64,000 bases of DNA from Prostheceraeus crozeri (Eukaryota; Platyhelminthes; Polycladida; Euryleptidae), in the NCBI GenBank assembly GCA_907163375.1, contig CAJQUW010000468.1:1-64000 (forward strand), in the 5' to 3' direction. The notes under the pieces are model-generated. The model saw only the letters and a program-made list of their open reading frames with translations. It searched no databases and was not told where the DNA came from. A program made the translations under genes and the position numbers. Shown here in pieces: positions 12,785-33,780 of the stretch (position 1 is the first letter of the stretch; each line of letters opens with the position of its first letter).

Positions 12785-12790
12785 TTTCAG
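12785..12790. repeat. Left target-site duplication TTTCAG
   Basis: TTTCAG directly precedes AGTAGTAAG at 12791 and is repeated at 33641-33646 directly after CTTACTACT. Six base pairs is the duplication length described for Polinton/Maverick integrases. Confidence 0.75.
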
Positions 12791-14440
12791 AGTAGTAAGA
12801 AAACGGCGAACACTCGACCGGCGCCCCCCCCTCTGGAACGGCAGAGTGTCGTGGTCGGCCGCCGTGGTGCTTCGGGTCTGAGTCCCCCCCCCTCTGGAAC
12901 GACAGAGGTTGTAGTCTGTCGTGGTGTGCCGGCCAGGTGTGTTCACAAACTGTTCGCTGACGTCCCCCCCCCCTCTGGAACGATAGAGTGTTGGTGGACT
13001 TGGGCGACCGCCAGGATTAGTCTTGAGGCTATAGTGTGTGATGTTTTTCGTGCAATCTGCTGAATGTTGGGTTGAAAATGGGCTGTTTCGAGTGGAAGCA
13101 GTGCTCGGATGTGAAAACGGAGGCCAGATTCGGATTCAGCGTGAAATTCTGCATCGGTATGGTGAGTTTCAAGTCAATCGGAGAGAAAAATTTTCGCTGA
13201 CCTGCCCCCCCCCCTCGGGAGAGCTCCCTTCGATCTTGGCTTCCAGTGGACGGATTTTGTCGTGCCATAGCTCGTTTGAAAGCTAAGAGTGAGACAAATT
13301 CACTGAAAGAAACTGCTTGTTCCTATCTGTCTTTGTTCAAAAGTTAGAGCGGTTACAAGATTTTAGGTCGGAGCTCGCTCACCTGAAAAAATCCTAAGTG
13401 TCAGAGTGACTTTATATGGGTAAAATTTTGAAAATTTTCCAAAGTGTGGAATTTCGACCTGGGACCGTCACCAAAACATTTTTCATCAAATTTTGAAATT
13501 TCACTGACGTCCCCCCCCCTCTGGACAGCTTGCTTCGATTTTGGCTTCCAGTGGACGGATTTTGTCGTGCGATAGCTCGTTTGAAAGCTAAGAGTGAGAC
13601 AAATTCAGTGAAAGAAACGGCTTGTTCCTATCTGTCTTCGTTCAAAAGTTAGAGCGGTTACAAGATTTTAGGTCGGAGCTCGCTCACCTGAAAAAATCCT
13701 AAGTGTCAGAGTGACTTTGTATGGGTAAAATTTTGAAAATTTTCCAAAGTGTGGAATTTCGACCTGGGACCGTCACCAAAACATTTTTCATCAAATTTTG
13801 AAATTTCACTGACGTCCCCCCCTCCCTCTGGACAGCTTGCTTCGATTTTGGCTTCCAGTGGACGGATTTTGTCGTGCGATAGCTCGTTTGAAAGCTAAGA
13901 GTGAGACAAAATCAGTGAAAGAAACGGCTTGTTCCTATCTGTCTTCGTTCAAAAGTTAGAGCGGTTACAAGATTTTAGGTCGGAGCTCGCTCACCTGAAA
14001 AAATCCTAAGTGTCAGAGTGGCTTTGTATGGGTAAAATTTTGAAACTTTTCCAAAGTGTGGAATTTCGACCTGGGACCGTCACCAAAACATTTTTCATCA
14101 AATTTTGAAATTTCACTGACGTCCCCCCCCCTCTGGACAGCTTGCTTCAATCTTGGCTTCCAGTGGACGGATTTTGTCGTGCGATAGCTCGTTTGAAAGC
14201 TAAGAGTGAGACAAATTCAGTGAAAGAAACGGCTTGTTCCTATCTGTCTTCGTTCAAAAGTTAGAGCGGTTACAAGATTTTAGGTCGGAGCTCGCTCACC
14301 TGAAAAAATCCTAAGTGTCAGAGTGACTTTGTATGGGTAAAATTTTGAAAATTTTCCAAAGTGTGTAATTTCGACCTGGGACCGTCACCAAAACATTTTT
14401 CATCAAATTTTGAAATTTCACTGACGTCCCCCCCCCCTCT
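12791..14440. repeat. Left terminal inverted repeat with G-tract satellite
   Basis: The outer 400 bp (12791-13200) pair with 33640-33230 with about a dozen differences. C runs follow CTGACGT or CTCT motifs at about 12825, 12884, 12965, 13205, 13511, 13818, 14126 and 14431. The satellite proper has CTGACGT at 13504, 13809, 14116 and 14421, giving three units of 305-307 bp plus one diverged unit (13196-13504). Each unit includes the sequence facing outward TTTTTTCAGGTGAG on the minus strand. Confidence 0.85.
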
Positions 14441-14462
14441 TATCGATTGCATATTCACAGGG

Positions 14463-15140
14463 TATATAAGAACGGGATCGGGAGAGGAATTTCACTAAGT
14501 TGAGAAACTGACTACAGGTAAGTCGTTTCTCTTGAGGTCCGATATCGGACTTCTGACTTTACATTGCTGATATCAGCTAAGGTGTCAGACTTATAGGTTA
14601 GTCAGTATAGCATGACTGACCATTTGATGATAGTAGGCCGAAATCTTCAAACGGCTATAACTTTGCTTCTACAAGTCCTTTAGACTTGATTCAAAAAACA
14701 TTCGACAGCGTTTGCTATGCTGAAGGTGACAGACTACTTATAAACGTTTTATGAGTAGTACTAAAATACTGAAAAATTTAAATTCATATTTAATGATAAT
14801 AATTAAAGTTTTTGAATAAAAAGCAGTCGTTTATGAGTCTCTGTGACTTGGGTCGTTTCCTCTTGTAAATAACTCCACCGGTTTTCATGTCAAAACTGGG
14901 GCCCGGATACCAACACAGTGATATGACGCACGCTCTGTCCGATCGAGGTTGGATTTGTGGGTCGAGGCCTTGGAGCTGGGATAAGATCCCCTCTGAGTAA
15001 TGCCTGTAACGGATTCAAGAGCTTAACACCCAAACGGTTGCTGACTTGCTATCAAATGTTTGGTGACTTAGTCTTTCAATGCATATCAGCAAGTAGTATC
15101 CTATAAACACTTGCTATCAAATTTTACTCTATCTTTACAG
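14463..15140 (+). promoter_or_regulatory. TATA box, leader exon and 5' UTR intron of the 360-aa gene
   Basis: TATATAA at 14463-14469 lies just inside the last satellite unit. A leader exon ends ACTACAG at 14517, followed by GTAAGTCG (donor at 14518). The acceptor CTATCTTTACAG ends at 15140, seven bases before the ATG at 15148, giving a 623-bp UTR intron. The mirror copy is at 30050-30727 with the TATA box at 30721-30727. Confidence 0.6.
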
Positions 15141-15147
15141 AATTATC

Positions 15148-16292
15148 ATGACAAAACCGAATAACGCAAAGATGTTAGTTGGCAAGTGCAGTTGTGGCAA
15201 GATTGCCAGAGGTAGCGAACTTAAGAAGCATTTAAAAGAAAAAGAGGGGACGATGGGCCATGAGAGGAAAGTGATGTTGAGGTTGTGTGTGTCTTGTCGG
15301 AAATGTGTGATGGGGGATGAGAAGGAATTTATGAAGGCGCATTTGCAGTGTGAGAGTGGGAACATCGGAGAGAAGGGGTTCAAGGCATGGTTTGAGGGAG
15401 AGTTGTTGGAAAGGGAAGAGGTGAGAAAGGCGGTGGCAACGATTCAGGACGTGATTGGGGAGAAAGTGGTGAGGAATGCGAGTGATGGGATTTCGAGTGA
15501 TGGGAGTTCGAATGAGGAAGTTGAGTTGAGAGCGAAAATGAAGAAGAAGGATGATGTTGATTTGGATGCGGTGATGGAAGATTTGTTTGGGGACATAGCG
15601 GATTTGAAGGAAGAGTGGGAGGGGGAGGAAGTGGCTAAGCCGATGGCAGCGTCATCGCCACGGCAGCAAGAGGCGTATGATACGGAGGTATTTGTGAGAA
15701 TGAAGGATCGTGTGATGGCTTTGGAAAGTAATAATAGAAAAGTTTTGAAGGAGAATGAAGAGCTGAAGGTGAAGGTTGAGGGGTATAGGGCAACGAGGGA
15801 AGAGTTGGAGAGCTTGAGAAAGAAGGAGAAGGAATGGATGGCGGAAAGGAGCGAGTTGATGAGGAAGGCAGGTTTGGTGGAGAGTTTGCAGGCGAGTGTG
15901 TCGAGGAAGGATGAAGAGATAGAGCGGATGCGAAGCGTGGTGAAGGAGACGGAGGAGGTGAAGGTTATTAATAAGAGGTTTACGGGTGAAGTGGAGCGAC
16001 TGCATGAGGGTTTGAAGTGTCGAAAAAGGAGAGTATATGAGGTTCATCTTCCCCTCTTTGAGAATAACGTATGCGATGCCCCTACAATCTCCAGCGACTT
16101 AAATGAAACACAGTTGTGTTATGAGGGGGATGGAGTTCGCTGCCTCCACATGACGATGAACATCAATGGAGATCTTGATGACTTCGTCGTCAGAAAAGTC
16201 AGAAAGAAGGTTCCCAGTAAGTCTATTCAACATAATCATTTTTGTAGCTCATCTAATCTCCTATTATTTTTCTTTCAGAGTGTTTGCAGTAG
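15148..16292 (+). CDS. 360-aa Cys/His and coiled-coil protein, left copy
   Basis: The open frame runs to 16332, but a consensus donor (CCCA/GTAAGT at 16217) and acceptor (TTTCTTTCAG ending 16278) predict a 62-bp intron; after splicing, translation ends at TAG 16290-16292, giving 360 residues. The N-terminus has two Cys/His clusters: C14-x-C16..H28..H38 and C47-x2-C50..C53..H65-x2-C68, likely zinc-binding. Residues about 135-165 are acidic. Residues about 178-300 are charged and heptad-like (repeated E, K, R, L), a probable coiled coil. Family unknown. As the first gene inside the terminal repeat it could be a DNA-binding replication factor or the priming terminal protein, but no priming residue can be identified. 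Its composition is strongly purine-skewed compared with the polymerase. Confidence 0.7.
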
Positions 16293-16726
16293 TAGTGTCG
16301 GTGGACGGAGAACGACCCATGGGCTCTTTTAAGGGCCAACCTTCTAATGCAGCTAAAGCGGTCCCAAGCCCGCCACATATCCTCGGATATGGAATGCAGA
16401 GGGGAAGAAAAATGATGAATGGAATGAAATGGGAGGACACTCACGCGCCACACGCAACATAACACACTTCTCTCTTCCGTAGTCTAACAAGCTCTTTACA
16501 CATGGATCGCAGTCGATTGCTATCCCTGTATCAGAAGTGTAAGCTATCTTAATTTTATTTGACACTATTTCATCTATCATCATCGTCCATATGAAATGTT
16601 TTAAGATTTACAAGTTAGACTAAGCGTGCTACTATTTCCAAATGAAAAAGTATACATGGTTAAATCATCCACTGAAGTCCCGTTCAAGTAAGTCAGTATG
16701 AAAGCAAAGATAATATGAAATAAAAA
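16293..16726. other. 3' region between convergent genes
   Basis: It holds the 3' UTR of the 360-aa gene. AATAAA on the plus strand (16719-16724) and TTTATT, a minus-strand AATAAA (16727-16732), lie back to back and could terminate the two convergent transcripts. The corresponding right-arm region carries a 315-bp nested duplication. Confidence 0.5.
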
Positions 16727-16730
16727 TTTA

Positions 16731-17180
16731 TTATGGCATGTATTTCAAAAGGTCTTCATCGTCAATATCGTCCCAGAGTCTGGCTTCACATAGATCACAA
16801 AAACAGTTCAGTTGCTTTAGTCGTTCTTCCACTGCGAGCCTCACTTTATCAATATACTTCCACTCTGCCATAGTTCGTGGCTGGGAGTTAGGGGTGTACC
16901 ACTCCCATAATTGGTGGAGGAATTTCGTGCTGGTGATCTCCATCACATCGTCAGTATCGTACTGGAGATACTTCCACCTCACGCCTGTTAAGTCGGGACA
17001 CTCCTTCTCACATACACTCTCCTCTTCCTCATCCGCTGGTAATGATAACTTTCTGATATTGTCCAGTCGGTACACCTTCTCTACCTTCCCCTTCGTTGGA
17101 GCGTTTGGTGCAACGAGCGCCTTTGGTGTTGAGCATGGAGAAGAGAATTTTGTGTTTGGTGTTGTCGGAGGGCTTGTCAT
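16731..17180 (-). CDS. 149-aa protein of unknown function, left copy
   Basis: The 149-codon frame begins MTSPPTTPNTKF. The first 45 residues are low-complexity (P, S, T, K), followed by an acidic DEEEE stretch (about 51-56). A tryptophan-rich middle contains GVRWKYLQYD and LHQLWEWYTP; the C-terminus has CFCDLCEARLWDD (a C-x-C-x2-C cluster) and an acidic end. No family recognised. The start lies 271 bp from the polymerase start on the other strand, so the two genes probably share a bidirectional promoter. The stop codon overlaps its own poly(A) signal. The right copy differs at two residues (T/A in CPDLTGV, K/E in EWKYID). Conservation of the frame in both arms supports a real gene. Confidence 0.65.
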   Translation of the reverse strand: MTSPPTTPNTKFSSPCSTPKALVAPNAPTKGKVEKVYRLDNIRKLSLPADEEEESVCEKECPDLTGVRWKYLQYDTDDVMEITSTKFLHQLWEWYTPNSQPRTMAEWKYIDKVRLAVEERLKQLNCFCDLCEARLWDDIDDEDLLKYMP

Positions 17181-17229
17181 GTTGACTGTGAATAATGACT
17201 TTGAAATGTTTTCTAATTCTTAAGTATCA

Positions 17230-17454
17230 ACAAGCAACCAATCAGAATGAACAGCCAATGAATGATGAATATGAAAGTATATATGCAAAGTGACATCCGT
17301 ATCATTTCACTCTGTCTTTGAGACGCATAAGTGAACTGTTGTCTAGCGAATTCTGTATTTGAGGCGTACAAGTGAACTGCTCTCTAGTGAATTCCAAATT
17401 TGAGACGTATTATTTGACTGAAGTATCAACCTTAAACTTGATTTCGTTGAAATG
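17230..17454 (+). promoter_or_regulatory. Polymerase promoter and repeated leader
   Basis: CCAAT boxes at 17238-17242 and 17255-17259, TATATAT at 17278-17284, then a leader containing an imperfect 41-bp tandem repeat starting GAGACG/GAGGCG at 17320, 17361 and 17402. The ATG at 17452-17454 is followed at once by GTAAGT. The same layout is seen at 217-63 in element 1. The mirror copy is at 27421-27645. Confidence 0.6.
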
Positions 17455-20400
17455 GTAAGTTGAAAATTTCCTCTCTCATCTCCCTCAAACGTGTGGCTAA
17501 TAGCATCTTCCTCAATTTCAGGCATCAACTTCATCACCAACACCCTCCCTTCTCGAGGAAAGTTTAGAGTTATTGAGTCAAGGTAGGTTGTAACAATACA
17601 CTGAGACTTGAACAGAGATGATAGAATGATTTCTCTTTCAGGTGATACCAGTCTCATCTCGAGCGAGTCGGATAACAACAGCGACTCCATGTCAACATTG
17701 TCGCGGGAATGCAACGATCGGGAATGTGCTGACTGTGGACACATCTTCACGAGGAAGCGGGATCTCACCCGACACATCAAGCGAGGTGTTTGTCGACCTA
17801 AGCCGGCATCAAACTCCGAAGGTGGGGATGATTCTGTTAACGTCGTCTCCTTTTCTTGCGACTTGTGCGCTCAGTCTTTCGAGACACGTTTTGAACTATC
17901 TTCGCACAGACTTCAACATACACACAGTGACGATAGTTATACTAACAGCACCTCCTCTATCCGACTCACTGAAGTGTCCATAAATAATTTAGTGAGGAAC
18001 TACCAGATGGACTCCTCAGAAACCATTGCTAACTTTGAGGAATGGTTTCATCAAAATTCATCATTGATAGAAGCGCTCTTCAACAATTTAGACAATTTTA
18101 GGATGAAGGCGCTCATCTATCTTAAAATAAAATATGTAAAAATCGACCACCATACTGGTCAAATAGTAGAGAGGTTGGAGTTTCACATACCCTCCTCTCC
18201 TGCAACCGAAGTTGTAGACTATGAGTCTTGGATAAATTTTCATATCCAAGGATTAAAATTAAACATAGATAAATTTAACGAGCGCGATAGCGGTCTCGTT
18301 TTTGATGGTATTGAGTCCGCCTTATTTAAAATCACTTTATTAGAAAACTACTCTGGACGAGGCTCCTTTAAACTTCCGAAAAATTTAAGAAATAAAGCAG
18401 CAGTCATTTCTGTAGATTGCGAATCGCAATGTTTTAAGTATGCCGTCCTCTCCATTCTCCACTATAATGATGTACAGAATAGCCGATACCGTAAGAGTAA
18501 GTATCAACAGTGGGAGAATGAATTAAAGTTTGATGACTGCAATAGTGAAGATATGAAAATTAAAGATATAGAAAAATTTGAAAAATTGAACAACATCAAA
18601 ATAGTTCTCCATGTTTGGGAAAAGGGATTGAAGGGTGTCCGCTACAACTGGCGTTCGAGTTGTTATGACCACGTTGTCAACCTTTTGTTAGTAAGACAGG
18701 ATGATAGTGAGGAATGGCACTACTGCGGCATTCCCAAAATTTCTCGCTTATACCACCACTTAAGAAATTCTACCTCATCAGAGATTTATTACTGTGACAG
18801 ATGCATTCGGAACTTTAGGAGTAAAAACAAATTTGAAACTCATTATGAGTGGTGTAAGCGAGGTAAACTGCAAATGGAACGCATGCCCAAAGATAAGGAG
18901 TTTTCATATAGAGAGAATGGCGATGAACTAAGTCCTCTTCGTGTCATCTATGCTGACATCGAATGTTATATCGATGATAACATCCATCGACCAGCAGCCA
19001 TTTCCTGCTATGAAGTATGGCATGACCATTTCCAAAATAGAAAAAATAAAATGCGCGTCTGGCAAGGTGAGGATTGTATTTACCAATTCCTACAATTCCT
19101 CGAACAGGCTGTAAAATTTCAGCAAAAGTATGATGGTGAACTCTATCGCAGATCATTGCATATGACAGCAGATGATCAAGTAAAATTTGATAGTTGCAAC
19201 GTTTGCCCCAAATGTAGGAAAACATTTGACGATGATAAGATTAAGAAAGTGCGCGACCATGATCACATCACTGGTAAATTTAGAAACGCACTCTGTTCAA
19301 AATGCAATTTTTCGCTGAGGATGAAACGGCGTACATTACCCGTCATTTTCCATAATTTCAAGGGCTACGATAGCCATATGATAATAAAAGGAGGTTTAGG
19401 TCAAATGAAAGAGTGGAAGCTTGATGTAATAGCACAAACGAGAGAGACGTTTATGGCCATGACAGCAAAAGTGCCTGTCGATAAAACTAAAGAAAATAAG
19501 ACGGTCTATTTTGATATAAAATTTTTAGATTCCTACCAATTTATGACTGCATCACTGGCCTCTCTCGTACAAAATCTGAAGTCTCTTCCACTAACACAAA
19601 ATCTTAAGAAACAATATCCAAATCTAACCGATGAAGTCATCACACGGAAAGGAGTCTTTCCATATGCATATTTTGATGCAATTAGTAAACTCGGCGAGAC
19701 TTCTCTTCCGCCCATAGATAAATTTAAAAATGATTTGAGCGGTGCAGAATGTAAGACCGAAGATTATGATCATGCACAAGATGCATGGATAAAATTTGAC
19801 TGCCATACATTTGGTGAATATATGATTGCCTACCTTAAGTTAGATGTATTTTTGCTGGCTGATGTATTTCAGGAGTTTCGACGAGTGGCATTAGAAGAAG
19901 ATAAGTTAGATCCCGTCCACTTTGTCAGTCTACCAGCCATGTCATTTAAGTCTGCTTTTAAAATGACTGGTGAGACCATTCATCTCTTACAAGATCCAGA
20001 GATGTATAATTTATTTGAGCGAGGAATTCGCGGTGGTCTCACATTTGTAAATAAACATAGGTTAAAATCTGAAACAGTAGGTAATGATCATATCCATCTT
20101 AAGTATTATGACCAAAATAATTTGTATGGTAGTTCATTATCCAAACCACTCCCTCACTCTGAGTTTAGCTGGTTAGATGATAGTGAAATTCAGCATCTCT
20201 CCAACCCTTCTAACATACTAGCAATTCCAGATGAAGGTGATTGGGGATATTATTTTGAGATAGATCTAATCTATCCAAATAATATTAAACATAAAACCGT
20301 AGATTTTCCACTCGCACCCGAATCAGGTGAAGTGAGTAAAGATATGTTTTCCGACTTTATGAAACAATTTCATAAAGATTTAGAATCATGCGGTCAACCC

Positions 20401-21459
20401 GACTATAAGCCTTGTCGCAAACTTTTACTCACCCAGTATGATAAGGAAAACTATCTAGTCCACTTTAGCATCTTAAAATTTTATTTAGAAATGGGTATGA
20501 TTTTAAAAAGAGTTCACCGCATTATTAAATTTAGACAGAAAGCCTTCCTCAAACCATATATTGATAGCAACAGCCAGAAACGTGCACTAGCCCAAAATAA
20601 TTTTGAAAAAGATTTTTATAAGTATAAGAATAATAGTCTATTTGGTAAGACGATGGAGGATGTTAGAAAACGTGTAAACTATAAACTAGTCAATGATGTT
20701 ACAAAATTTAAGAAATTGGTCTCATCACCTCTATTCATCGATAGAGACATTATCGATGAGGACCTTGTAGGTGTTAAAATGATAAAATCTGAAGTTGAGT
20801 TGTGCAAGCCCATCTATATTGGTCAAGCTGTACTAGATTACTCTAAGCTTGAAATGTACCAACTCTTTTATAAAATACTAAAACCATGTCCTCTCGTAAA
20901 AGGGGTTCGTTTGTTGGGTGGTGATACAGATAGTTTCTTCTTAGGTATTACCACTCAAAAAGATTTAAATTTCAATGAAGTAGGAAAATCTTTAGAAAGA
21001 TATTTTGATACATCAAATTATCCTACTGATCACCCACTCTACTCCATCAAAAATAAGGCAAAACTTGGCTGCTTTAAGGATGAGACAGCAGGGAAGGAAA
21101 TAGATGAAATGATTCTCCTCCGTCCAAAAATGTACAGTATGAAATTAAAGGATAGCGACGATAGTATTAAGCGTGCTAAAGGCATATCTAGATCATTGGT
21201 CTCTAACATGAAACATAAGAATTTCAGGAAAGCCTATAGAAATAAAAATATAACGTTTGTCAATATGACAATCTTAAAATCTAAGTCGCATGAGATCAAA
21301 ACTCATACTTTTAGGAAACGGGCGCTTTCAGCATGGGAGGATAAGAGGTGCTGGCTAGAACACAACATATCTCTTCCACATGGACATCCTGACACAAACA
21401 TACCACCACCCAAAAGAATTAAACTCACACTACCACATTCAGGAGACGTCCTAGCATAA
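17452..21459 (+). CDS. Protein-primed-type family B DNA polymerase, left copy
   Basis: Predicted exons are 17452-17454 (ATG only), 17522-17582 and 17642-21459, with introns of 67 and 59 bp bounded by GTAAGT/TTTCAG and GTAGGT/TTTCAG; the frame stays open, about 1293 residues. The main frame from 17608 alone codes 1283, and residue numbers here count from it. Zinc fingers: C40-C43-H56-C62, C84-C87-H100-H104 and C396-C399-H412-C416. A Cys275/His355 region could be a cysteine-peptidase-like domain. Exonuclease motifs: D450-I-E452, N583..D588, Y742-x3-D746. An endonuclease VII-like HNH insertion (C533-C536, D550-H-D-H553, C563-C566) lies between Exo I and Exo II. Polymerase motifs: A at D835 (DQNNLYG), B at K1007-NNSLFG, C at D1106-T-D1108, and KMY at 1174-1176. 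All catalytic residues are present. The long A-to-B gap suits the TPR insertions of protein-primed enzymes. Confidence 0.9.
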
Positions 21460-21764
21460 TCATCCTTAACTTAGTATTTTGATGTTGATTTCTGTAGATA
21501 AACATTGTTGTTTTATGTATCGCATGAGATTGTTTTTTCCTTGTGAATATGTGTCCACATCTGTACATTCCCCATGTGATGACTTTTCCACTGAAAGACA
21601 TTTTTCCTATGCCTGTATATTTCCACCCTTCACGAAGTAAAAAGACTTTTTGTATATAGCAATGTTTATTGAAGTGCGCTCATGTATATATTTTCAGTGG
21701 ATGTTGTATAAAGTCTATTGCTTCACATTCATGTACATATTTCAATAAATGTTGTATAAAGACT
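21460..21764. other. Convergent 3' region of polymerase and 262-aa genes
   Basis: It holds an AATAAA at 21744-21749 for the polymerase transcript and TTTATT at 21665-21670 (minus-strand signal) for the 262-aa gene, so the 3' UTRs would overlap. Two imperfect copies of a segment containing TTGTATAAAG(T/A)C are visible (21705-21715 and 21751-21762). Mirror at 23111-23415. Confidence 0.5.
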
Positions 21765-22553
21765 TCACTTTGTTTTCCGAAACACTAACGTTATGAGGGA
21801 TTTAGTATCTTTCACGTGGATGCACTCTTGTAAACCATTGGTAATTTTGATAGCAATAGAGGGTATAGTTTGTTTGACGACGGGATGATAGAAAATAGAT
21901 TCAAACATCTTCTCGACTATTCCATATGAAGCGTCTTTATCATGAATGAAATCACGTAAAATGTATTCTTTTTTCTCACCAACAGAAATAGGTAGAATCA
22001 AATCACTTTGAATGTAAAGGTGCTGTTCATGTTTATCAAGTGTCATTGGTGTTTCTATACCAATCGTATGCGCAGCAGCAAACACTGTTTGTAGCATTGA
22101 AAAACCAAAGAGTTTTTTCAAATTTTTACTCAATTGACATTGAATGTCATCACCCAGTCTCAGAACAACGCGTTGATTTTCAATTGAAAACGAAATGTGG
22201 TGTGTCTTTACATCATATTTACTTTTCATCACATGCTTCAACTTCTGTTGTATATAAGGATTTACTACATGAATGAAGCTTTCAACTGTATGATATAGAC
22301 GCGGCATTATATTGATAGCAACTTTAGATTCTTCATAAGACTGGTAAATTTTCTTGATGCGATCGCCATAGATGTCCACCCACCATTCATCATTAACTGA
22401 ATCAGCTTTAGTGTGATATTCATGAGAAGCATACACCACACCGCTTCCAATAATAGGTGTATAATGTCTTACAAAATGACGCAAGGTTGGAGAGAAATAA
22501 ACTGTAAGTTTGTCATTATATTTCTGAATAACCAACTTATTTTTGTTCGCCAT
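21765..22553 (-). CDS. 262-aa virus-like structural-type protein, left (complete) copy
   Basis: The 262-codon frame begins MANKNKLV. It has no signal peptide or membrane helix and is beta-strand rich in pattern, with motifs SFSIENQRVVLRLGDD, LYIQSDLILPISVGEKK, YILRDF, YHPVVKQTIPSIAIKI and C-terminal TLVFRKTK. The C-terminal pattern (surface-exposed 'SDLI..VG', 'LR.F', 'Y.PV', basic LVFR end) resembles a family of proteins repeatedly found beside protein-primed polymerase genes in invertebrate virus-like elements, possibly virion or host-attachment proteins. This is pattern recognition, not proof. The ATG lies 4 bp from the inner inverted repeat of the palindrome centre, so its native promoter is gone. 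The right copy is deleted. Confidence 0.6.
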   Translation of the reverse strand: MANKNKLVIQKYNDKLTVYFSPTLRHFVRHYTPIIGSGVVYASHEYHTKADSVNDEWWVDIYGDRIKKIYQSYEESKVAINIMPRLYHTVESFIHVVNPYIQQKLKHVMKSKYDVKTHHISFSIENQRVVLRLGDDIQCQLSKNLKKLFGFSMLQTVFAAAHTIGIETPMTLDKHEQHLYIQSDLILPISVGEKKEYILRDFIHDKDASYGIVEKMFESIFYHPVVKQTIPSIAIKITNGLQECIHVKDTKSLITLVFRKTK

Positions 22554-22591
22554 AATTTTCTCTCCAACCTTGCGTCATTTTGTAAGACATT
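22463..22591. repeat. Palindrome centre: 35-bp inverted repeat with 59-nt spacer
   Basis: 22463-22497 and 22557-22591 are exact inverted copies; the spacer is 22498-22556 and contains the start codon of the 262-aa gene. Right of 22591 the sequence jumps to the mirror of about 22284, so roughly 177-179 bp of the left arm (22284-22462) are missing on the right, with two bases of shared sequence (TT) at the junction. Confidence 0.85.
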
Positions 22592-23110
22592 GAAAGCTTC
22601 ATTCATGTAGTAAATCCTTATATACAACAGAAGTTGAAGCATGTGATGAAAAGTAAATATGATGTAAAGACACACCACATTTCGTTTTCAATTGAAAATC
22701 AACGCGTTGTTCTGAAACTGGGTGATGACATTCAATGTCAATTGAGTAAAAATTTGAAAAAACTCTTTGGTTTTTCAATGCTACAAACTGTGTTTGCTGC
22801 TGCGCATACGATTGGTATAGAAACACCAATGACACTTGATAAACATGAACAGCACCTTTACATTCAAAGTGATTTGATTCTACCTATTTCTGTTGGTGAG
22901 AAAAAAGAATACATTTTACGTGATTTCATTCATGATAAAGACGCTTCATATGGAATAGTCGAGAAGATGTTTGAATCTATTTTCTATCATCCCGTCGTCA
23001 AACAAACTATACCCTCTATTGCTATCAAAATTACCAATGGTTTACAAGAGTGCATCCACGTGAAAGATACTAAATCCCTCATAACGTTAGTGTTTCGGAA
23101 AACAAAGTGA
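22557..23110 (+). pseudogene. Deleted right copy of the 262-aa gene
   Basis: It retains about a dozen codons from the N-terminal part (inside the 35-bp repeat), loses about 60 codons, and continues from the segment before KHVMKSKYDV to the normal C-terminus. The first 20 or so codons lie only in the left copy, and the deletion junction introduces a stop, so no normal product is expected. Over the shared 158 residues it differs once (R/K in RVVLRLGDD). Confidence 0.8.
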
Positions 23111-23415
23111 AGTCTTTATACAACATTTATTGAAATATGTACATGAATGTGAAGCAATAGACTTTATACAACATCCACTGAAAATATATACATGAGCGCA
23201 CTTCAATAAACATTGCTATATACAAAAAGTCTTTTTACTTCGTGAAGGGTGGAAATATACAGGCATAGGAAAAATGTCTTTCAGTGGAAAAGTCATCACA
23301 TGGGGAATGTACAGATGTGGACACATATTCACAAGGAAAAAACAATCTCATGCGATACATAAAACAACAATGTTTATCTACAGAAATCAACATCAAAATA
23401 CTAAGTTAAGGATGA

Positions 23416-26400
23416 TTATGCTAGGACGTCTCCTGAATGTGGTAGTGTGAGTTTAATTCTTTTGGGTGGTGGTATGTTTGTGTCAGGATGTCCATGTGGA
23501 AGAGATATGTTGTGTTCTAGCCAGCACCTCTTATCCTCCCATGCTGAAAGCGCCCGTTTCCTAAAAGTATGAGTTTTGATCTCATGCGACTTAGATTTTA
23601 AGATTGTCATATTGACAAACGTTATATTTTTATTTCTATAGGCTTTCCTGAAATTCTTATGTTTCATGTTAGAGACCAATGATCTAGATATGCCTTTAGC
23701 ACGCTTAATACTATCGTCGCTATCCTTTAATTTCATACTGTACATTTTTGGACGGAGGAGAATCATTTCATCTATTTCCTTCCCTGCTGTCTCATCCTTA
23801 AAGCAGCCAAGTTTTGCCTTATTTTTGATGGAGTAGAGTGGGTGATCAGTAGGATAATTTGATGTATCAAAATATCTTTCTAAAGATTTTCCTACTTCAT
23901 TGAAATTTAAATCTTTTTGAGTGGTAATACCTAAGAAGAAACTATCTGTATCACCACCCAACAAACGAACCCCTTTTACGAGAGGACATGGTTTTAGTAT
24001 TTTATAAAAGAGTTGGTACATTTCAAGCTTAGAGTAATCTAGTACAGCTTGACCAATATAGATGGGCTTGCACAACTCAACTTCAGATTTTATCATTTTA
24101 ACACCTACAAGGTCCTCATCGATAATGTCTCTATCGATGAATAGAGGTGATGAGACCAATTTCTTAAATTTTGTAACATCATTGACTAGTTTATAGTTTA
24201 CACGTTTTCTAACATCCTCCATCGTCTTACCAAATAGACTATTATTCTTATACTTATAAAAATCTTTTTCAAAATTATTTTGGGCTAGTGCACGTTTCTG
24301 GCTGTTGCTATCAATATATGGTTTGAGGAAGGCTTTCTGTCTAAATTTAATAATGCGGTGAACTCTTTTTAAAATCATACCCATTTCTAAATAAAATTTT
24401 AAGATGCTAAAGTGGACTAGATAGTTTTCCTTATCATACTGGGTGAGTAAAAGTTTGCGACAAGGCTTATAGTCGGGTTGACCGCATGATTCTAAATCTT
24501 TATGAAATTGTTTCATAAAGTCGGAAAACATATCTTTACTCACTTCACCTGATTCGGGTGCGAGTGGAAAATCTACGGTTTTATGTTTAATATTATTTGG
24601 ATAGATTAGATCTATCTCAAAATAATATCCCCAATCACCTTCATCTGGAATTGCTAGTATGTTAGAAGGGTTGGAGAGATGCTGAATTTCACTATCATCT
24701 AACCAGCTAAACTCAGAGTGAGGGAGTGGTTTGGATAATGAACTACCATACAAATTATTTTGGTCATAATACTTAAGATGGATATGATCATTACCTACTG
24801 TTTCAGATTTTAACCTATGTTTATTTACAAATGTGAGACCACCGCGAATTCCTCGCTCAAATAAATTATACATCTCTGGATCTTGTAAGAGATGAATGGT
24901 CTCACCAGTCATTTTAAAAGCAGACTTAAATGACATGGCTGGTAGACTGACAAAGTGGACGGGATCTAACTTATCTTCTTCTAATGCCACTCGTCGAAAC
25001 TCCTGAAATACATCAGCCAGCAAAAATACATCTAACTTAAGGTAGGCAATCATATATTCACCAAATGTATGGCAGTCAAATTTTATCCATGCATCTTGTG
25101 CATGATCATAATCTTCGGTCTTACATTCTGCACCGCTCAAATCATTTTTAAATTTATCTATGGGCGGAAGAGAAGTCTCGCCGAGTTTACTAATTGCATC
25201 AAAATATGCATATGGAAAGACTCCTTTCCGTGTGATGACTTCATCGGTTAGATTTGGATATTGTTTCTTAAGATTTTGTGTTAGTGGAAGAGACTTCAGA
25301 TTTTGTACGAGAGAGGCCAGTGATGCAGTCATAAATTGGTAGGAATCTAAAAATTTTATATCAAAATAGACCGTCTTATTTTCTTTAGTTTTATCGACAG
25401 GCACTTTTGCTGTCATGGCCATAAACGTCTCTCTCGTTTGTGCTATTACATCAAGCTTCCACTCTTTCATTTGACCTAAACCTCCTTTTATTATCATATG
25501 GCTATCGTAGCCCTTGAAATTATGGAAAATGACGGGTAATGTACGCCGTTTCATCCTCAGCGAAAAATTGCATTTTGAACAGAGTGCGTTTCTAAATTTA
25601 CCAGTGATGTGATCATGGTCGCGCACTTTCTTAATCTTATCATCGTCAAATGTTTTCCTACATTTGGGGCAAACGTTGCAACTATCAAATTTTACTTGAT
25701 CATCTGCTGTCATATGCAATGATCTGCGATAGAGTTCACCATCATACTTTTGCTGAAATTTTACAGCCTGTTCGAGGAATTGTAGGAATTGGTAAATACA
25801 ATCCTCACCTTGCCAGACGCGCATTTTATTTTTTCTATTTTGGAAATGGTCATGCCATACTTCATAGCAGGAAATGGCTGCTGGTCGATGGATGTTATCA
25901 TCGATATAACATTCGATGTCAGCATAGATGACACGAAGAGGACTTAGTTCATCGCCATTCTCTCTATATGAAAACTCCTTATCTTTGGGCATGCGTTCCA
26001 TTTGCAGTTTACCTCGCTTACACCACTCATAATGAGTTTCAAATTTGTTTTTACTCCTAAAGTTCCGAATGCATCTGTCACAGTAATAAATCTCTGATGA
26101 GGTAGAATTTCTTAAGTGGTGGTATAAGCGAGAAATTTTGGGAATGCCGCAGTAGTGCCATTCCTCACTATCATCCTGTCTTACTAACAAAAGGTTGACA
26201 ACGTGGTCATAACAACTCGAACGCCAGTTGTAGCGGACACCCTTCAATCCCTTTTCCCAAACATGGAGAACTATTTTGATGTTGTTCAATTTTTCAAATT
26301 TTTCTATATCTTTAATTTTCATATCTTCACTATTGCAGTCATCAAACTTTAATTCATTCTCCCACTGTTGATACTTACTCTTACGGTATCGGCTATTCTG

Positions 26401-27423
26401 TACATCATTATAGTGGAGAATGGAGAGGACGGCATACTTAAAACATTGCGATTCGCAATCTACAGAAATGACTGCTGCTTTATTTCTTAAATTTTTCGGA
26501 AGTTTAAAGGAGCCTCGTCCAGAGTAGTTTTCTAATAAAGTGATTTTAAATAAGGCGGACTCAATACCATCAAAAACGAGACCGCTATCGCGCTCGTTAA
26601 ATTTATCTATGTTTAATTTTAATCCTTGGATATGAAAATTTATCCAAGACTCATAGTCTACAACTTCGGTTGCAGGAGAGGAGGGTATGTGAAACTCCAA
26701 CCTCTCTACTATTTGACCAGTATGGTGGTCGATTTTTACATATTTTATTTTAAGATAGATGAGCGCCTTCATCCTAAAATTGTCTAAATTGTTGAAGAGC
26801 GCTTCTATCAATGATGAATTTTGATGAAACCATTCCTCAAAGTTAGCAATGGTTTCTGAGGAGTCCATCTGGTAGTTCCTCACTAAATTATTTATGGACA
26901 CTTCAGTGAGTCGGATAGAGGAGGTGCTGTTAGTATAACTATCGTCACTGTGTGTATGTTGAAGTCTGTGCGAAGATAGTTCAAAACGTGTCTCGAAAGA
27001 CTGAGCGCACAAGTCGCAAGAAAAGGAGACGACGTTAACAGAATCATCCCCACCTTCGGAGTTTGATGCCGGCTTAGGTCGACAAACACCTCGCTTGATG
27101 TGTCGGGTGAGATCCCGCTTCCTCGTGAAGATGTGTCCACAGTCAGCACATTCCCGATCGTTGCATTCCCGCGACAATGTTGACATGGAGTCGCTGTTGT
27201 TATCCGACTCGCTCGAGATGAGACTGGTATCACCTGAAAGAGAAATCATTCTATCATCTCTGTTCAAGTCTCAGTGTATTGTTACAACCTACCTTGACTC
27301 AATAACTCTAAACTTTCCTCGAGAAGGGAGGGTGTTGGTGATGAAGTTGATGCCTGAAATTGAGGAAGATGCTATTAGCCACACGTTTGAGGGAGATGAG
27401 AGAGGAAATTTTCAACTTACCAT
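23416..27423 (-). CDS. Protein-primed-type family B DNA polymerase, right copy
   Basis: Mirror of the left gene (coordinates sum to 44875). Predicted exons are 27423-27421, 27353-27293 and 27233-23416, with the same ATG/GTAAGT start and both introns. The 1283-codon main frame is identical in protein sequence to the left copy, and overlapping antisense frames are also identical, so the DNA is virtually unchanged. All exonuclease, HNH-like and polymerase motifs described for the left copy are present. Two intact copies facing each other suggest very recent origin or continuing homogenisation between the arms. Confidence 0.9.
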
Positions 27424-27645
27424 TTCAACGAAATCAAGTTTAAGGTTGATACTTCAGTCAAATAATACGTCTCAAATTTGGAATTCACTAGAGAGCAGTT
27501 CACTTGTACGCCTCAAATACAGAATTCGCTAGACAACAGTTCACTTATGCGTCTCAAAGACAGAGTGAAATGATACGGATGTCACTTTGCATATATACTT
27601 TCATATTCATCATTCATTGGCTGTTCATTCTGATTGGTTGCTTGT
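27421..27645 (-). promoter_or_regulatory. Right copy of the polymerase promoter and repeated leader
   Basis: Mirror of 17230-17454: CCAAT boxes on the minus strand near 27633-27637 and 27616-27620, ATATATA near 27591-27597, the 41-bp leader repeats, and the ATG/GTAAGT exon end at 27423-27415. Confidence 0.55.
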
Positions 27646-27694
27646 TGATACTTAAGAATTAGAAAACATTTCAAAGTCATTATTCACAGTCAAC

Positions 27695-28144
27695 ATGACA
27701 AGCCCTCCGACAACACCAAACACAAAATTCTCTTCTCCATGCTCAACACCAAAGGCGCTCGTTGCACCAAACGCTCCAACGAAGGGGAAGGTAGAGAAGG
27801 TGTACCGACTGGACAATATCAGAAAGTTATCATTACCAGCGGACGAGGAAGAGGAGAGTGTATGTGAGAAGGAGTGTCCCGACTTAGCAGGTGTGAGGTG
27901 GAAGTATCTCCAGTACGATACTGACGATGTGATGGAGATCACCAGCACGAAATTCCTCCACCAATTATGGGAGTGGTACACCCCTAACTCCCAGCCACGA
28001 ACTATGGCGGAGTGGGAGTACATCGACAAAGTGAGGCTCGCAGTGGAAGAACGATTAAAGCAACTGAACTGTTTTTGTGATCTATGTGAAGCCAGACTCT
28101 GGGACGATATTGACGATGAAGACCTTTTGAAATACATGCCATAA
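27695..28144 (+). CDS. 149-aa protein of unknown function, right copy
   Basis: Same frame and start as the left copy with two substitutions (A for T in CPDLAGV; E for K in EWEYID). C-terminal C-x-C-x2-C cluster intact. It is divergent from the right polymerase gene and ends just before the 315-bp duplicated region. Confidence 0.65.
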   Translation: MTSPPTTPNTKFSSPCSTPKALVAPNAPTKGKVEKVYRLDNIRKLSLPADEEEESVCEKECPDLAGVRWKYLQYDTDDVMEITSTKFLHQLWEWYTPNSQPRTMAEWEYIDKVRLAVEERLKQLNCFCDLCEARLWDDIDDEDLLKYMP

Positions 28145-28202
28145 TAAATTTTTATTTCATATTATCTTTGCTTTCATACTGACTTACTTGAACGGGACTT
28201 CA

Positions 28203-28715
28203 GTGGATGATTTAACCATGTATACTTTTTCATTTGGAAATAGTAGCACGCTTAGTCTAACTTGTAAATCTTAAAACATTTCATATGGACGATGATGATA
28301 GATGAAATAGTGTCAAATAAAATTAAGATAGCTTACACTTCTGATACAGGGATAGCAATCGACTGCGATCCATGTGTAATTAAAACATTTCATATGGACG
28401 ATGATGATAGATGAAATAGTGTCAAATAAAATTAAGATAGCTTACACTTCTGATACAGGGATAGCAATCGACTGCGATCCATGTGTAAAGAGCTTGTTAG
28501 ACTACGGATGGGCTTAAGTGGATGATTTAACCATGTATACTTTTTCATTTGGAAATAGTAGCACGCTTAGTCTAACTTGTAAATCTTAAAACATTTCATA
28601 TGGACGATGATGATAGATGAAATAGTGTCAAATAAAATTAAGATAGCTTACACTTCTGATACAGGGATAGCAATCGACTGCGATCCATGTGTAAAGAGCT
28701 TGTTAGACTACGGAA
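28203..28715. repeat. Nested 315-bp duplication specific to the right arm
   Basis: A block starting TTAAAACATTTCATATGG occurs at 28271, 28380 and 28586, but once in the left arm. The steps are 109 bp and 206 bp, adding to 315 bp, the exact shift between inner and outer mirror sums. The second copy ends at an aberrant junction (CTACGGATGGGCTTAAGTGG near 28502-28520). It lies in the 3' region between the 149-aa and 360-aa genes and disrupts neither. Confidence 0.85.
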
Positions 28716-28897
28716 GAGAGAAGTGTGTTATGTTGCGTGTGGCGCGTGAGTGTCCTCCCATTTCATTCCATTCATCATTTTTCTTCCCCTCTGCATTCCA
28801 TATCCGAGGATATGTGGCGGGCTTGGGACCGCTTTAGCTGCATTAGAAGGTTGGCCCTTAAAAGAGCCCATGGGTCGTTCTCCGTCCACCGACACTA

Positions 28898-30042
28898 CTA
28901 CTGCAAACACTCTGAAAGAAAAATAATAGGAGATTAGATGAGCTACAAAAATGATTATGTTGAATAGACTTACTGGGAACCTTCTTTCTGACTTTTCTGA
29001 CGACGAAGTCATCAAGATCTCCATTGATGTTCATCGTCATGTGGAGGCAGCGAACTCCATCCCCCTCATAACACAACTGTGTTTCATTTAAGTCGCTGGA
29101 GATTGTAGGGGCATCGCATACGTTATTCTCAAAGAGGGGAAGATGAACCTCATATACTCTCCTTTTTCGACACCTCAAACCCTCATGCAGTCGCTCCACT
29201 TCACCCGTCAACCTCTTATTAATAACCTTCACCTCCTCCGTCTCCTTCACCACGCTTCGCATCCGCTCTATCTCTTCATCCTTCCTCGACACACTCGCCT
29301 GCAAACTCTCCACCAAACCTGCCTTCCTCATCAACTCGCTCCTTTCCGCCATCCATTCCTTCTCCTTCTTTCTCAAGCTCTCCAACTCTTCCCTCGTTGC
29401 CCTATACCCCTCAACCTTCACCTTCAGCTCTTCATTCTCCTTCAAAACTTTTCTATTATTACTTTCCAAAGCCATCACACGATCCTTCATTCTCACAAAT
29501 ACCTCCGTATCATACGCCTCTTGCTGCCGTGGCGATGACGCTGCCATCGGCTTAGCCACTTCCTCCCCCTCCCACTCTTCCTTCAAATCCGCTATGTCCC
29601 CAAACAAATCTTCCATCACCGCATCCAAATCAACATCATCCTTCTTCTTCATTTTCGCTCTCAACTCAACTTCCTCATTCGAACTCCCATCACTCGAAAT
29701 CCCATCACTCGCATTCCTCACCACTTTCTCCCCAATCACGTCCTGAATCGTTGCCACCGCCTTTCTCACCTCTTCCCTTTCCAACAACTCTCCCTCAAAC
29801 CATGCCTTGAACCCCTTCTCTCCGATGTTCCCACTCTCACACTGCAAATGCGCCTTCATAAATTCCTTCTCATCCCCCATCACACATTTCCGACAAGACA
29901 CACACAACCTCAACATCACTTTCCTCTCATGGCCCATCGTCCCCTCTTTTTCTTTTAAATGCTTCTTAAGTTCGCTACCTCTGGCAATCTTGCCACAACT
30001 GCACTTGCCAACTAACATCTTTGCGTTATTCGGTTTTGTCAT
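28898..30042 (-). CDS. 360-aa Cys/His and coiled-coil protein, right copy
   Basis: Predicted exons are 30042-28974 and 28911-28898, mirroring the left gene with the same 62-bp intron and TAG stop. It differs from the left copy at two residues in the last third (L for F in NKRLTGE, R for K in GLRCRKRR). Cys/His clusters and coiled-coil region intact. The upstream 5' UTR intron and TATA box at 30721-30727 are also mirrored. Confidence 0.7.
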
Positions 30043-30049
30043 GATAATT

Positions 30050-30727
30050 CTGTAAAGATAGAGTAAAATTTGATAGCAAGTGTTTATAGGATACTACTTG
30101 CTGATATGCATTGAAAGACTAAGTCACCAAACATTTGATAGCAAGTCAGCAACCGTTTGGGTGTTAAGCTCTTGAATCCGTTACAGGCATTACTCAGAGG
30201 GGATCTTATCCCAGCTCCAAGGCCTCGACCCACAAATCCAACCTCGATCGGACAGAGCGTGCGTCATATCACTGTGTTGGTATCCGGGCCCCAGTTTTGA
30301 CATGAAAACCGGTGGAGTTATTTACAAGAGGAAACGACCCAAGTCACAGAGACTCATAAACGACTGCTTTTTATTCAAAAACTTTAATTATTATCATTAA
30401 ATATGAATTTAAATTTTTCAGTATTTTAGTACTACTCATAAAACGTTTATAAGTAGTCTGTCACCTTCAGCATAGCAAACGCTGTCGAATGTTTTTTGAA
30501 TCAAGTCTAAAGGACTTGTAGAAGCAAAGTTATAGCCGTTTGAAGATTTCGGCCTACTATCATCAAATGGTCAGTCATGCTATACTGACTAACCTATAAG
30601 TCTGACACCTTAGCTGATATCAGCAATGTAAAGTCAGAAGTCCGATATCGGACCTCAAGAGAAACGACTTACCTGTAGTCAGTTTCTCAACTTAGTGAAA
30701 TTCCTCTCCCGATCCCGTTCTTATATA
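30050..30727 (-). promoter_or_regulatory. Right copy of the 360-aa gene promoter and UTR intron
   Basis: TTATATA at 30721-30727 (TATATAA on the minus strand), donor GTAAGTCG just after CTACAG near 30673, acceptor CTTTACAG ending at 30050, seven bases from the ATG at 30042. Confidence 0.55.
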
Positions 30728-30749
30728 CCCTGTGAATATGCAATCGATA

Positions 30750-33640
30750 AGAGGGGGGGGACGTCAGTGAAATTTCAAAATTTGATGAAAAATGTTTTGG
30801 TGACGGTCCCAGGTCGAAATTCCACACTTTGGAAAATTTTCAAAATTTTACCCATACAAAGTCACTCTGACACTTAGGATTTTTTCAGGTGAGCGAGCTC
30901 CGACCTAAAATCTTGTAACCGCTCTAACTTTTGAACGAAGACAGATAGGAACAAGCCGTTTCTTTCACTGAATTTGTCTCACTCTTAGCTTTCAAACGAG
31001 CTATCGCACGACAAAATCCGTCCACTGGAAGCCAAAATCGAAGCAAGCTGTCCAGAGGGGGGGGGACGTCAGTGAAATTTCAAAATTTGATGAAAAATGT
31101 TTTGGTGACGGTCCCATGTCGAAATTCCACACTTTGGAAAATTTTCAAAATTTTACCCATACAAAGTCACTCTGACACTTAGGATTTTTTCAGGTGAGCG
31201 AGCTCCGACCTAAAATCTTGTAACCGCTCTAACTTTTGAACGAAGACAGATAGGAACAAGCCGTTTCTTTCACTGAATTTGTCTCACTCTTAGCTTTCAA
31301 ACGAGCTATCGCACGACAAAATCCGTCCACTGGAAGCCAAAATCGAAGCAAGCTGTCCAGAGGGGGGGGACGTCAGTGAAATTTCAAAATTTGATGAAAA
31401 ATGTTTTGGTGACGGTCCCAGGTCGAAATTCCACACTTTGGAAAATTTTCAAAATTTTACCCATATAAAGTCACTCTGACACTTAGGATTTTTTCAGGTG
31501 AGCGAGCTCCGACCTAAAATCTTGTAACCGCTCTAACTTTTGAACGAAGACAGATAGGAACAAGCCGTTTCTTTCACTGAATTTGTCTCACTCTTAGCTT
31601 TCAAACGAGCTATCGCACGACAAAATCCGTCCACTGAAAGCCAAAATCGAAGCAAGCTGTCCAGAGGGGGGGGACGTCAGTGAAATTTCAAAATTTGATG
31701 AAAAATGTTTTGGTGACGGTCCCAGGTCGAAATTCCACACTTTGGAAAATTTTCAAAATTTTACCCATACAAAGTCACTCTGACACTTAGGATTTTTTCA
31801 GGTGAGCGAGCTCCGACCTAAAATCTTGTAACCGCTCTAACTTTTGAACGAAGACAGATAGGAACAAGCCGTTTCTTTCACTGAATTTGTCTCACTCTTA
31901 GCTTTCAAACGAGCTATCGCACGACAAAATCCGTCCACTGGAAGCCAAAATCGAAGCAAGCTGTCCAGAGGGGGGGGGGGACGTCAGTGAAATTTCAAAA
32001 TTTGATGAAAAATGTTTTGGTGACGGTCCCAGGTCGAAATTCCACACTTTGGAAAATTTTCAAAATTTTACCCATACAAAGTCACTCTGACACTTAGGAT
32101 TTTTTCAGGTGAGCGAGCTCCGACCTAAAATCTTGTAACCGCTCTAACTTTTGAACGAAGACAGATAGGAACAAGCCGTTTCTTTCACTGAATTTGTCTC
32201 ACTCTTAGCTTTCAAACGAGCTATCGCACGACAAAATCCGTCCACTGGAAGCCAAAATCGAAGCAAGCTGTCCAGAGGGGGGGGAACGTCAGTGAAATTT
32301 CAAAATTTGATGAAAAATGTTTTGGTGACGGTCCCAGGTCGAAATTCCACACTTTGGAAAATTTTCAAAATTTTACCCATACAAAGTCACTCTGACACTT
32401 AGGATTTTTTCAGGTGAGCGAGCTCCGACCTAAAATCTTGTAACCGCTCTAACTTTTGAACGAAGACAGATAGGAACAAGCCGATTCTTTCACTGAATCT
32501 GTCTCACTCTTAGCTTTCAAACGAGCTATCGCACGACAAAATCCGTCCACTGGAAGCCAAAATCGAAGCAAGCTGTCCAGAGGGGGGGGGACGTCAGTGA
32601 AATTTCAAAATTTGATGAAAAATGTTTTGGTGACGGTCCCAGGTCGAAATTCCACACTTTGGAAAATTTTCAAAATTTTACCCATACAAAGTCACTCTGA
32701 CACTTAGGACTTTTTCAGGTGAGCGAGCTCCGACCTAAAATCTTGTAACCGCTCTAACTTTTGAACGAAGACAGATAGGAACAAGCCGTTTCTTTCACTG
32801 AATTTGTCTCACTCTTAGCTTTCAAACGAGCTATGGCACGACAAAATCAAAATCCGTCCACTGGAAGCCAAAATCGAAGCGAACTGTCCAGAGGGGGGGG
32901 GACGTCAGCGAAAATTTTTTCTCTCCGATTGACTTGAAACTCACCATACAGATAAAGAATTTCACGCTGATTCCAAATCTGAAATCCGTTTTCCAATCCG
33001 ATGCTTCGTTTTGAAGCTAGAGCCCAAAACGTCCCAAATTCTAACTCTGTCGTTTTTCGCCAATGTCCCAAAATCTTAAATGGCGTCTCACATCTAAACG
33101 AAGACAGATATGAACAAGCCGTTCGTTTCACTGAATTTGTCTCACTCTTTGCTTTCAAACGAGCTATGGCACGACAAAATCCGTCCACTGGAAGCCAAAA
33201 TCGAAGCGAGCTGTCCAGAGGGGGGGGGACGTCAGCGAAAATTTTTCTCTCCGATTGACTTGAAACTCACCATACCGATGCAGAATTTCACGCCGAATCC
33301 GAATCCGACCTCCGTTTTCTCATCCGACCACTCCTTCCACTCGAAACAACCCATTTTACAACCCAACATTCAGCAGATTGCACGAAAAACATCAAAAACT
33401 ATAGCCTCAAGACTAATCCTGGCGGTCGCCCAAGTCCACCACGACACTCTATCGTTCCAGAGGGGGGGGACGTCAGCGAACAGTTTGTGAACACACCTGG
33501 CCGGCACACCACGACAGACTTCAACCTCTGTCTTTCCAGAGGGGGGGGGACTCAGACCCGAAGCACCACGGCGGCCGACCACGACACTCTGCCGTTCCAG
33601 AGGGGGGCGCCGGTCGAGTGTTCGCCGTTTTCTTACTACT
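30750..33640. repeat. Right terminal inverted repeat with expanded G-tract satellite
   Basis: ACGTCAG follows a G run of 7-11 bases at 30761, 31066, 31370, 31674, 31981, 32286, 32591 and 32902, giving seven units of 304-311 bp against three on the left. A diverged unit follows (32902-33229), then the outer repeat to 33640 with further G runs near 33461, 33540 and 33601. Each unit carries TTTTTTCAGGTGAGCGAGC on the plus strand, that is, pointing outward. Confidence 0.85.
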
Positions 33641-33646
33641 TTTCAG
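33641..33646. repeat. Right target-site duplication TTTCAG
   Basis: Identical to 12785-12790; it directly follows the terminal CTTACTACT. Confidence 0.75.
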
Positions 33647-33780
33647 TATCTGGTTTTCTATTGTCTCATTTTGATTCTGGTAATGTTGTAATCTGTATAT
33701 CATTCGCATCTGATGACTGTAATTGTCATCCAGCTGTTGTCATCATTTTGAATAAATACAAATACAAATACAGGGATTGA
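33647..33780 (+). repeat. LINE-like 3' tail
   Basis: AT-rich sequence ending in AATAAATACAAATACAAATACAG, a short-repeat tail typical of several non-LTR retroposons. The start resembles 12411 onward in the left flank. It abuts the hAT piece at 33783. Confidence 0.4.

Follow-up and report, generated by a model that had tools for sequence, protein, structure and literature searches.

The window analysed here, 64,000 nucleotides of contig CAJQUW010000468.1 from the assembly GCA_907163375.1 (2.05 Gb, 14,165 contigs) of the polyclad flatworm Prostheceraeus crozeri, contains a near-perfect palindrome of 20,850 bp at positions 12791-33640, with limits that self-alignment and sequence reading make exact. 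The palindrome, known here from the assembly sequence, has Polinton-type termini (AGTAGT..ACTACT) and a 6-bp target-site duplication (TSD), TTTCAG, on both sides, and probably derives, as an integrated palindrome, from a full-length Polinton family of ~22 kb. One half of the element is inversely duplicated around a short unique loop at the putative priming site, as in a snap-back genome, and we favour an origin by snap-back during replication, followed by exchange between terminal inverted repeats (TIRs) and insertion by an integrase acting in trans.

The palindrome, its centre and its genes

The inner arms (16496-22285 and 22590-28379) align without gaps over 5790 bp, with 5779 matching positions and 11 mismatches (99.8% identity), and the outer arms (14430-16680 and 28510-30760) over 2251 bp, with 2247 matching and four mismatches. 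Because 16496-16680 falls in both aligned blocks, the right arm must hold ~315 bp extra, which our reading of the self-alignment places around the copy of 16476-16680. The outermost ends (12791-13367 and 33067-33640) are ~93% alike, and the inner arms are separated by a central segment of 304 bp (22286-22589) containing the start of a 262-amino-acid (aa) gene. An inverted match of such length and identity cannot have arisen by chance. Each flank, searched within itself, gave one inverted pair of at least 80 bp, 95 bp in size. The arm alignments and exact limits thus bear out a preliminary description of this DNA, in which the whole 20.85-kb element was held to be palindromic. The element, its open reading frames (ORFs) and its centre are as follows.

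12791..33640, no strand: whole palindromic element, 20,850 bp, begins AGTAGTAAG, ends CTTACTACT
12785..12790, no strand: left TSD copy, TTTCAG
33641..33646, no strand: right TSD copy, TTTCAG
15148..16332, plus: 394-aa ORF, left arm
28858..30042, minus: 394-aa ORF, right-arm copy
16731..17180, minus: 149-aa ORF, left arm
27695..28144, plus: 149-aa ORF, right arm
17608..21459, plus: 1283-aa PolB-like ORF, left arm, with Endonuclease_7 domain and, by eye, a DTDS motif
23416..27267, minus: 1283-aa PolB-like ORF, right arm, identical to the left-arm copy
21765..22553, minus: 262-aa ORF, complete in the left copy only
22634..23110, plus: 262-aa gene, truncated copy, right arm
22488..22497, plus: fold-back stem, 5' side, TGGAGAGAAA, read in the window and in relative L014
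22557..22566, plus: fold-back stem, 3' side, TTTCTCTCCA, the last bases common to 39 other loci
22567..22589, minus: first 23 nt past the turn, reverse complement of 22465-22487

The turn of the palindrome consists of a 10-bp inverted repeat with a 59-nt loop, seen in the window and in L014; relative L027 has a single change within the stem. The window runs as far as 22566 and there switches to the reverse complement of 22487-22465; it next skips 179 bp (22286-22464) and then follows the reverse complement from 22285 down. To judge from its sequence, such a turn with such a skip is probably the signature of fold-back priming, and it lies where the preliminary description had proposed half a genome followed by its reverse. 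The phi29 polymerase is of the protein-primed type. It is strand-displacing and, in vitro, yields chimeras with inversion and intervening deletion (85% of 475), more than 70% of their junctions being primed at complementary stretches of 2-21 nt, in the passages of PMC1855051 that deal with them. The window junction carries the same signature; the phi29 chimeras are an in-vitro artefact and not a heritable element.

Elsewhere in the genome the same DNA does not turn. With the centre (21465-22589) as query, the best 40 of 1643 candidate loci were scored, namely the window and 39 others, 29 of which were compared in detail. At least 39 other loci are ~100% identical over query positions 1-1102 and continue where the window turns; the last 33 nt of the query match the opposite strand at each of the 39. 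The search for a full-length parent that the preliminary description had called for thus yielded full-length relatives, which run on past the centre. Among those compared, C13477, C3816 and C2954 are nearest to the left arm, differing at 2 of 2367 positions. C987, followed outward past the centre, encodes a 465-aa protein, a 153-aa protease-like protein, a 425-aa protein, a 406-aa integrase, a 205-aa weakly ATPase-like protein and other ORFs before reaching a right TIR. The integrase matches rve (1.3e-10) and Chromo (6.4e-7), a chromodomain; matches to Pox_A32 (0.026), Peptidase_C48 (0.0013) and Peptidase_C5 (0.044) are under cut-off. The 425-aa and 465-aa capsid candidates have no Pfam match, and the former matches no PDB sequence at E<=1. 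Both ends of C987 were found, but since its differing flanks share no TSD it may itself be rearranged. Matching TSDs, read from the flanks, and the same kind of ends are present in C7555, C13477, C10227, C2954 and C7508. The TSD is unconfirmed in C5929, C9952, C7921, C3816 and C9970 (one end found) and in C11119, C13838, C14055 and C13760 (neither end found). Polinton-type polymerases are numerous in the assembly (at least 176 PF03175 matches with 88 of 18,708 candidates scored), and the best 40 matches to a polymerase-side query lie in 39 contigs, with an inverted pair in the window contig only (a partner past a contig end would be missed).

Each arm of the window element carries a PolB-like protein with an Endonuclease_7 match and, under cut-off, C2H2-finger-like matches. 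PF03175 was not matched in this protein itself at E<=0.1, and is carried by its whole-length homologues P0012, P0052 and P0054 (51-53% identical). Of 3522 candidates, 104 qualify as homologues at E<=0.001, and the top one has 95% identity over 83%. Close kin exist in public sequence, a 3.3-kb JGI metagenome contig (P0001) encoding a 95% identical polymerase, and a 75% relative (P0002) lies on a 21-kb ENA contig; no relative was found in a collection of viral contigs. The 394-aa ORF, counted from its first ATG and earlier given as 360 aa, has no match in Pfam and weak coiled-coil-type matches, under cut-off, in NCBIfam. A distant kinship links the 262-aa protein to the 465-aa protein encoded by C987, whose C-terminal half it resembles (23%, E 2e-13 when these two were compared singly). 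No ORF for a retrovirus-like integrase lies within the element, and its ORF list agrees with the earlier statement that the integrase, ATPase, protease and capsid side is missing.

Like Polintons (Mavericks; adintovirus-like), the element has a PolB-like protein bearing Endonuclease_7, TIRs that end in short repeats, (AGT)2//(ACT)2, and a 6-bp TSD; its relative C987 has an rve and chromodomain integrase and matches protease and ATPase weakly. Such ends and 6-bp TSDs occur in vertebrate Mavericks, in the part of PMC8097293 that treats them. It differs in being one half inversely doubled, and because an integrase ORF is absent here and present in C987, it is a Polinton derivative, incomplete as a Polinton.

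Terminal repeats and differences between the arms

The arms diverge most at the ends, which we compared with those of the relatives, dropping C7921_R (110 bp only) and C11119 (no end found) and keeping C987_R outside the allele count. The stretches concerned, with one patch of the inner arms, are these.

13206..14436, no strand: left TIR array, 305-bp unit, 4.0 copies
30753..32913, no strand: right-arm TIR array, 305-bp unit, 7.1 copies, its outer 769 bp tested and left-type
32910..33236, no strand: right-TIR-type stretch, most like the right ends of C7555, C13477 and C987
33237..33640, no strand: last 404 bp at the right end, not assignable to the left or the right type
16820..17031, no strand: patch with 9 of the 11 inner-arm mismatches, two of its right-arm alleles seen in relative C7921

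Counted inward from the right end, bases 405-731 match right TIRs (C10227, 98% of 150; C7555, 97.3% of 328; C13477, 95.6% of 275; C987, 95.1% of 325) better than left TIRs (89-91% over ~170); three right ends lack the full right type here (C9952, 90% of 171; C3816, 94.3% of 140; C2954, 89.3% of 149). Over bases 732-1500 the match is to left TIRs (C7555, 97.8% of 633; C10227, 97.7% of 768; the window's own left end, 97.4% of 770), compared with 89-92% over 170-178 for the right ends of C7555, C987 and C13477. From these matches it follows that right-type meets left-type sequence at ~32910, within repeats common to both TIR types. The outer 404 bp find their best other match in a left end (C7555_L, 97.0%), with 92.6-96.1% for right ends (C987_R over 212 bp only); here the window's two ends share two alleles absent from 11 other ends, and each side has four private ones.

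Perfect duplication of one end is ruled out by the right-type bases. The preliminary description, which had proposed two copies of the same end, is upheld for the palindromic half and for two ends that an integrase can join, with their termini and TSD, but fails at bases 405-731. Either TIRs were exchanged after snap-back, or the palindrome arose within an already integrated element. Exchange between TIRs is usual in this family, since three of seven right ends of copies not folded at the window centre hold left-type array. These internal left-type repeats, in L049, L089 and L090 (C9952, C2954 and C3816), are themselves a mark of TIR exchange, as are the nearly identical left and right ends of C10227 (L047 with L046; 0.2% different).

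Over 5 kb of the inner arms (17032-22085) there are no mismatches. The alleles of the patch were read in seven relatives, C11119 (L058) having aligned poorly. Right-arm alleles 16820A and 16859C occur in six of the seven, 16848G and 17031G in one (C7921), and five of the nine in none; nearer the centre, 5 of 29 relatives have 22086=A and none has 22159=T. As some right-arm alleles recur in other family copies, the right arm appears, from sequence comparison, to be partly a mosaic of family alleles, as expected for a pool of replicating variants. The family copies L010-L038 likewise share single-nucleotide polymorphisms in patches, as if recombining in such a pool. Dating by arm divergence was dropped, the alleles being mosaic and the left and right ends of three other copies differing by 0.2%, 1.5% and 3.2%.

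Other inverted-arm elements and neighbouring sequence

The preliminary description had suggested looking for palindromes with other centres, and three further inverted-arm elements were found (C6304, C6899 and C4953). C6304 (57296-74664; L061-L064) is a second polymerase-bearing palindrome, from another Polinton-like family, without nucleotide match to the window arms. Its arms (57294-65931 and 74666-66036) are 99.82% identical over 7935 bp, with one mismatch and one gap in the outer 676 bp; it has AGTAGT/ACTACT ends, a TSD (CTCTAG, read from the flanks) and a fold-back centre of its own (2-6 nt overlap, ~104-nt loop). Its products include a PolB, which matches PF03175 at 2.9e-33, and an ATPase whose Pox_A32 match is above cut-off, and its relative C1856 reads straight through the C6304 centre, inside a 407-aa ORF. 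In the part of the PF03175 matches that was inspected, no other contig with two inverted polymerase genes was seen.

Six contigs with both ends came from the best 40 of 1350 candidates scored, four of them with polymerase and capsid sides at opposite ends (21.6-22.5 kb). C6899 (L065, L066, L077; 18.4 kb, TSD GCGGGA) and C4953 (L067, L068, L078; 19.1 kb, TSD TCAGTC) have inverted end copies 99.9% identical over 1249 bp and 95.0% over 1795 bp, respectively. Their interiors are mostly mirrored arrays of a ~29-bp unit, self-inverted at 72-90% only and with gaps; that of C6899 is without an ORF of 100 aa, and C4953 has a 176-aa right-side ORF in each arm. Both lack the window's polymerase arm, matching it only over 270-550 bp near 16410. 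The two occupy different sites and have different TSDs; with arms that share 97% identity over 1212 bp, they are related and not copies of one palindrome. A 900-bp piece of the C6899 arm has at least 40 matches at >=99% in at least 28 contigs (best 40 of 1606 candidates), and among the matches listed all 12 contigs with two are convergent, 11-59 kb apart. These are known as pairs, with no confirmed TSD, and the widest may be two separate elements. For two of the 12, C13838 and C14055, pieces from near the centre have 97.5% identity over 571 bp, and neither piece shows a palindrome within 751 bp. A constant size (17.4, 18.4, 19.1 and 20.85 kb against ~22 kb) was considered as a sign of packaging and is weakened by the 11-59 kb spread. 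Palindromic Polinton derivatives thus recur in this genome, in two families and with proper TSDs in four elements, and the gene-poor, inverted-arm kind has spread.

Around the window element, minus-strand ORFs at 11533-12036 and 33743-34072, which have no Pfam match, look to us like pieces of one hAT/ZBED-like protein, and further ORFs at 6766-7500 and 39095-40525 look by eye like Tc1/mariner- and pogo-like transposases.

Origin and significance

In the origin that we prefer for the window, protein-primed strand-displacement copying would leave the nascent 3' end free just beyond the polymerase gene; this end would fold onto its own strand, anneal at the 10-bp inverted repeat and be extended back to the left terminus, and the following round would give a linear palindrome, both ends of which are usable termini. 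Exchange in repeats common to left and right TIRs would bring a right-type stretch to one end, and integrase from a full-length copy would insert the palindrome with a 6-bp TSD. Because the capsid/integrase half is absent, the palindrome would depend on full-length copies. We consider this course of events fairly probable because relatives run on where the window turns and a fold-back junction is present, because a second palindrome, of an unrelated family, has its own centre and TSD, because inverted-arm elements recur (C6899, C4953 and the 12 convergent pairs), and because the window's ends share two outer alleles absent from 11 others. Several observations weigh against it. The window junction is single among the centre loci scored, leaving movement of the palindrome as such unsupported, and only 1 of the 39 listed polymerase-side contigs is paired; the inverted-arm elements that spread are the gene-poor kind and not copies of the polymerase half, and their separations of 11-59 kb are a poor simple fit if packaging limits size. 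Five right-arm patch alleles are seen in no relative. The termini are not identical, the outer 420 bp differing by 3.1% against 0.2% in the inner arms, and snap-back alone would not give rise to the right-type stretch.

That stretch, the chief amendment to the preliminary description, is also the chief evidence for a rival that we judge unlikely, though worth serious attention, namely that an integrated full-length Polinton broke, or its fork stalled, in the right half, whereupon the resected left side folded back at the 10-bp repeat, the left half was copied and the chromosome was rejoined by way of the homology that left-TIR and right-TIR repeats share, with loss of the right half and retention of the TSD and right end. 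The right-type stretch and the switch at ~32910 would then come free from one event, more simply than by exchange, and the retained TTTCAG, the single junction and the one paired contig in 39 all fit. Such a history nevertheless takes two steps at one break for every palindrome, yet there are palindromes in two unrelated families; it leaves inverted-arm elements at many sites unexplained, needs extra conversion for right-arm alleles from other copies, and sits uneasily with outer 404 bp that are not specifically right-type. The contig could also contain an assembly or amplification error, either a read that was an inverted chimera or a false path taken between near-identical copies: copies of the centre region are many, the arms have 5 kb free of mismatches, the sequence is known from the assembly, and whole-genome amplification with phi29 polymerase yields such inverted chimeras, as described in part of PMC1855051. 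We consider an artefact unlikely, as in four elements the limits of the palindrome are consistent with TSDs and flanks: the window palindrome stops exactly at the element ends, between matching TSDs and flanks not palindromic within themselves, its arms differ in array copy number, in the ~315 bp extra and in the patch, and in each of the window, C6304, C6899 and C4953 a wrong path would have had to find the correct right flank out of many copies. It is most improbable that the window is one copy of a non-autonomous Polinton family with very long TIRs, palindromic by design. C6899-type elements resemble such a family, but we reject it for the window, as we do a parent of this design, since the junction is private among the loci scored and the one paired contig of the 39 listed is the window's own.

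Comparable structures are known elsewhere. Foldback transposons (FB, Galileo) likewise have very long inverted arms with tandem repeats; they have another transposase and TSD length, and are not virus-like. Symmetric or palindromic defective adenovirus genomes were reportedly described by Daniell in 1976, and an Ad5-SV40 palindromic hybrid is said to date from 1983; these too are protein-primed linear DNA with the same end twice, but extrachromosomal. The snapback genomes of adeno-associated virus (AAV), a parvovirus, are not known to be inserted by an integrase with a TSD. According to PMC8235507, defective AAV particles hold snapback genomes with half the genome folded back, part of the replication gene and one end type. 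Adenovirus review passages mention left-end fragments only. No palindromic Polinton was described in titles and abstract openings of the top-ranked open-licence search results.

Polinton replication, to our knowledge, has so far been inferred from genes and not watched. If the preferred snap-back origin is true, a snap-back palindrome with its junction intact in a chromosome would be a fossil of a replication intermediate, and would open to test both protein-primed copying with strand displacement and the action of the integrase in trans. We suggest, tentatively, that Polintons may make copy-back defective genomes in vivo, as RNA viruses and parvoviruses do, that the parent integrase may insert them, and that some, of the C6899 type, may have become self-perpetuating, gene-poor palindromic satellites living on full-length Polintons and perhaps interfering with them. 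Such satellites, if real, would correspond, among DNA elements, to defective interfering genomes; they would be fixed in an animal genome and might hold the parent element in check.

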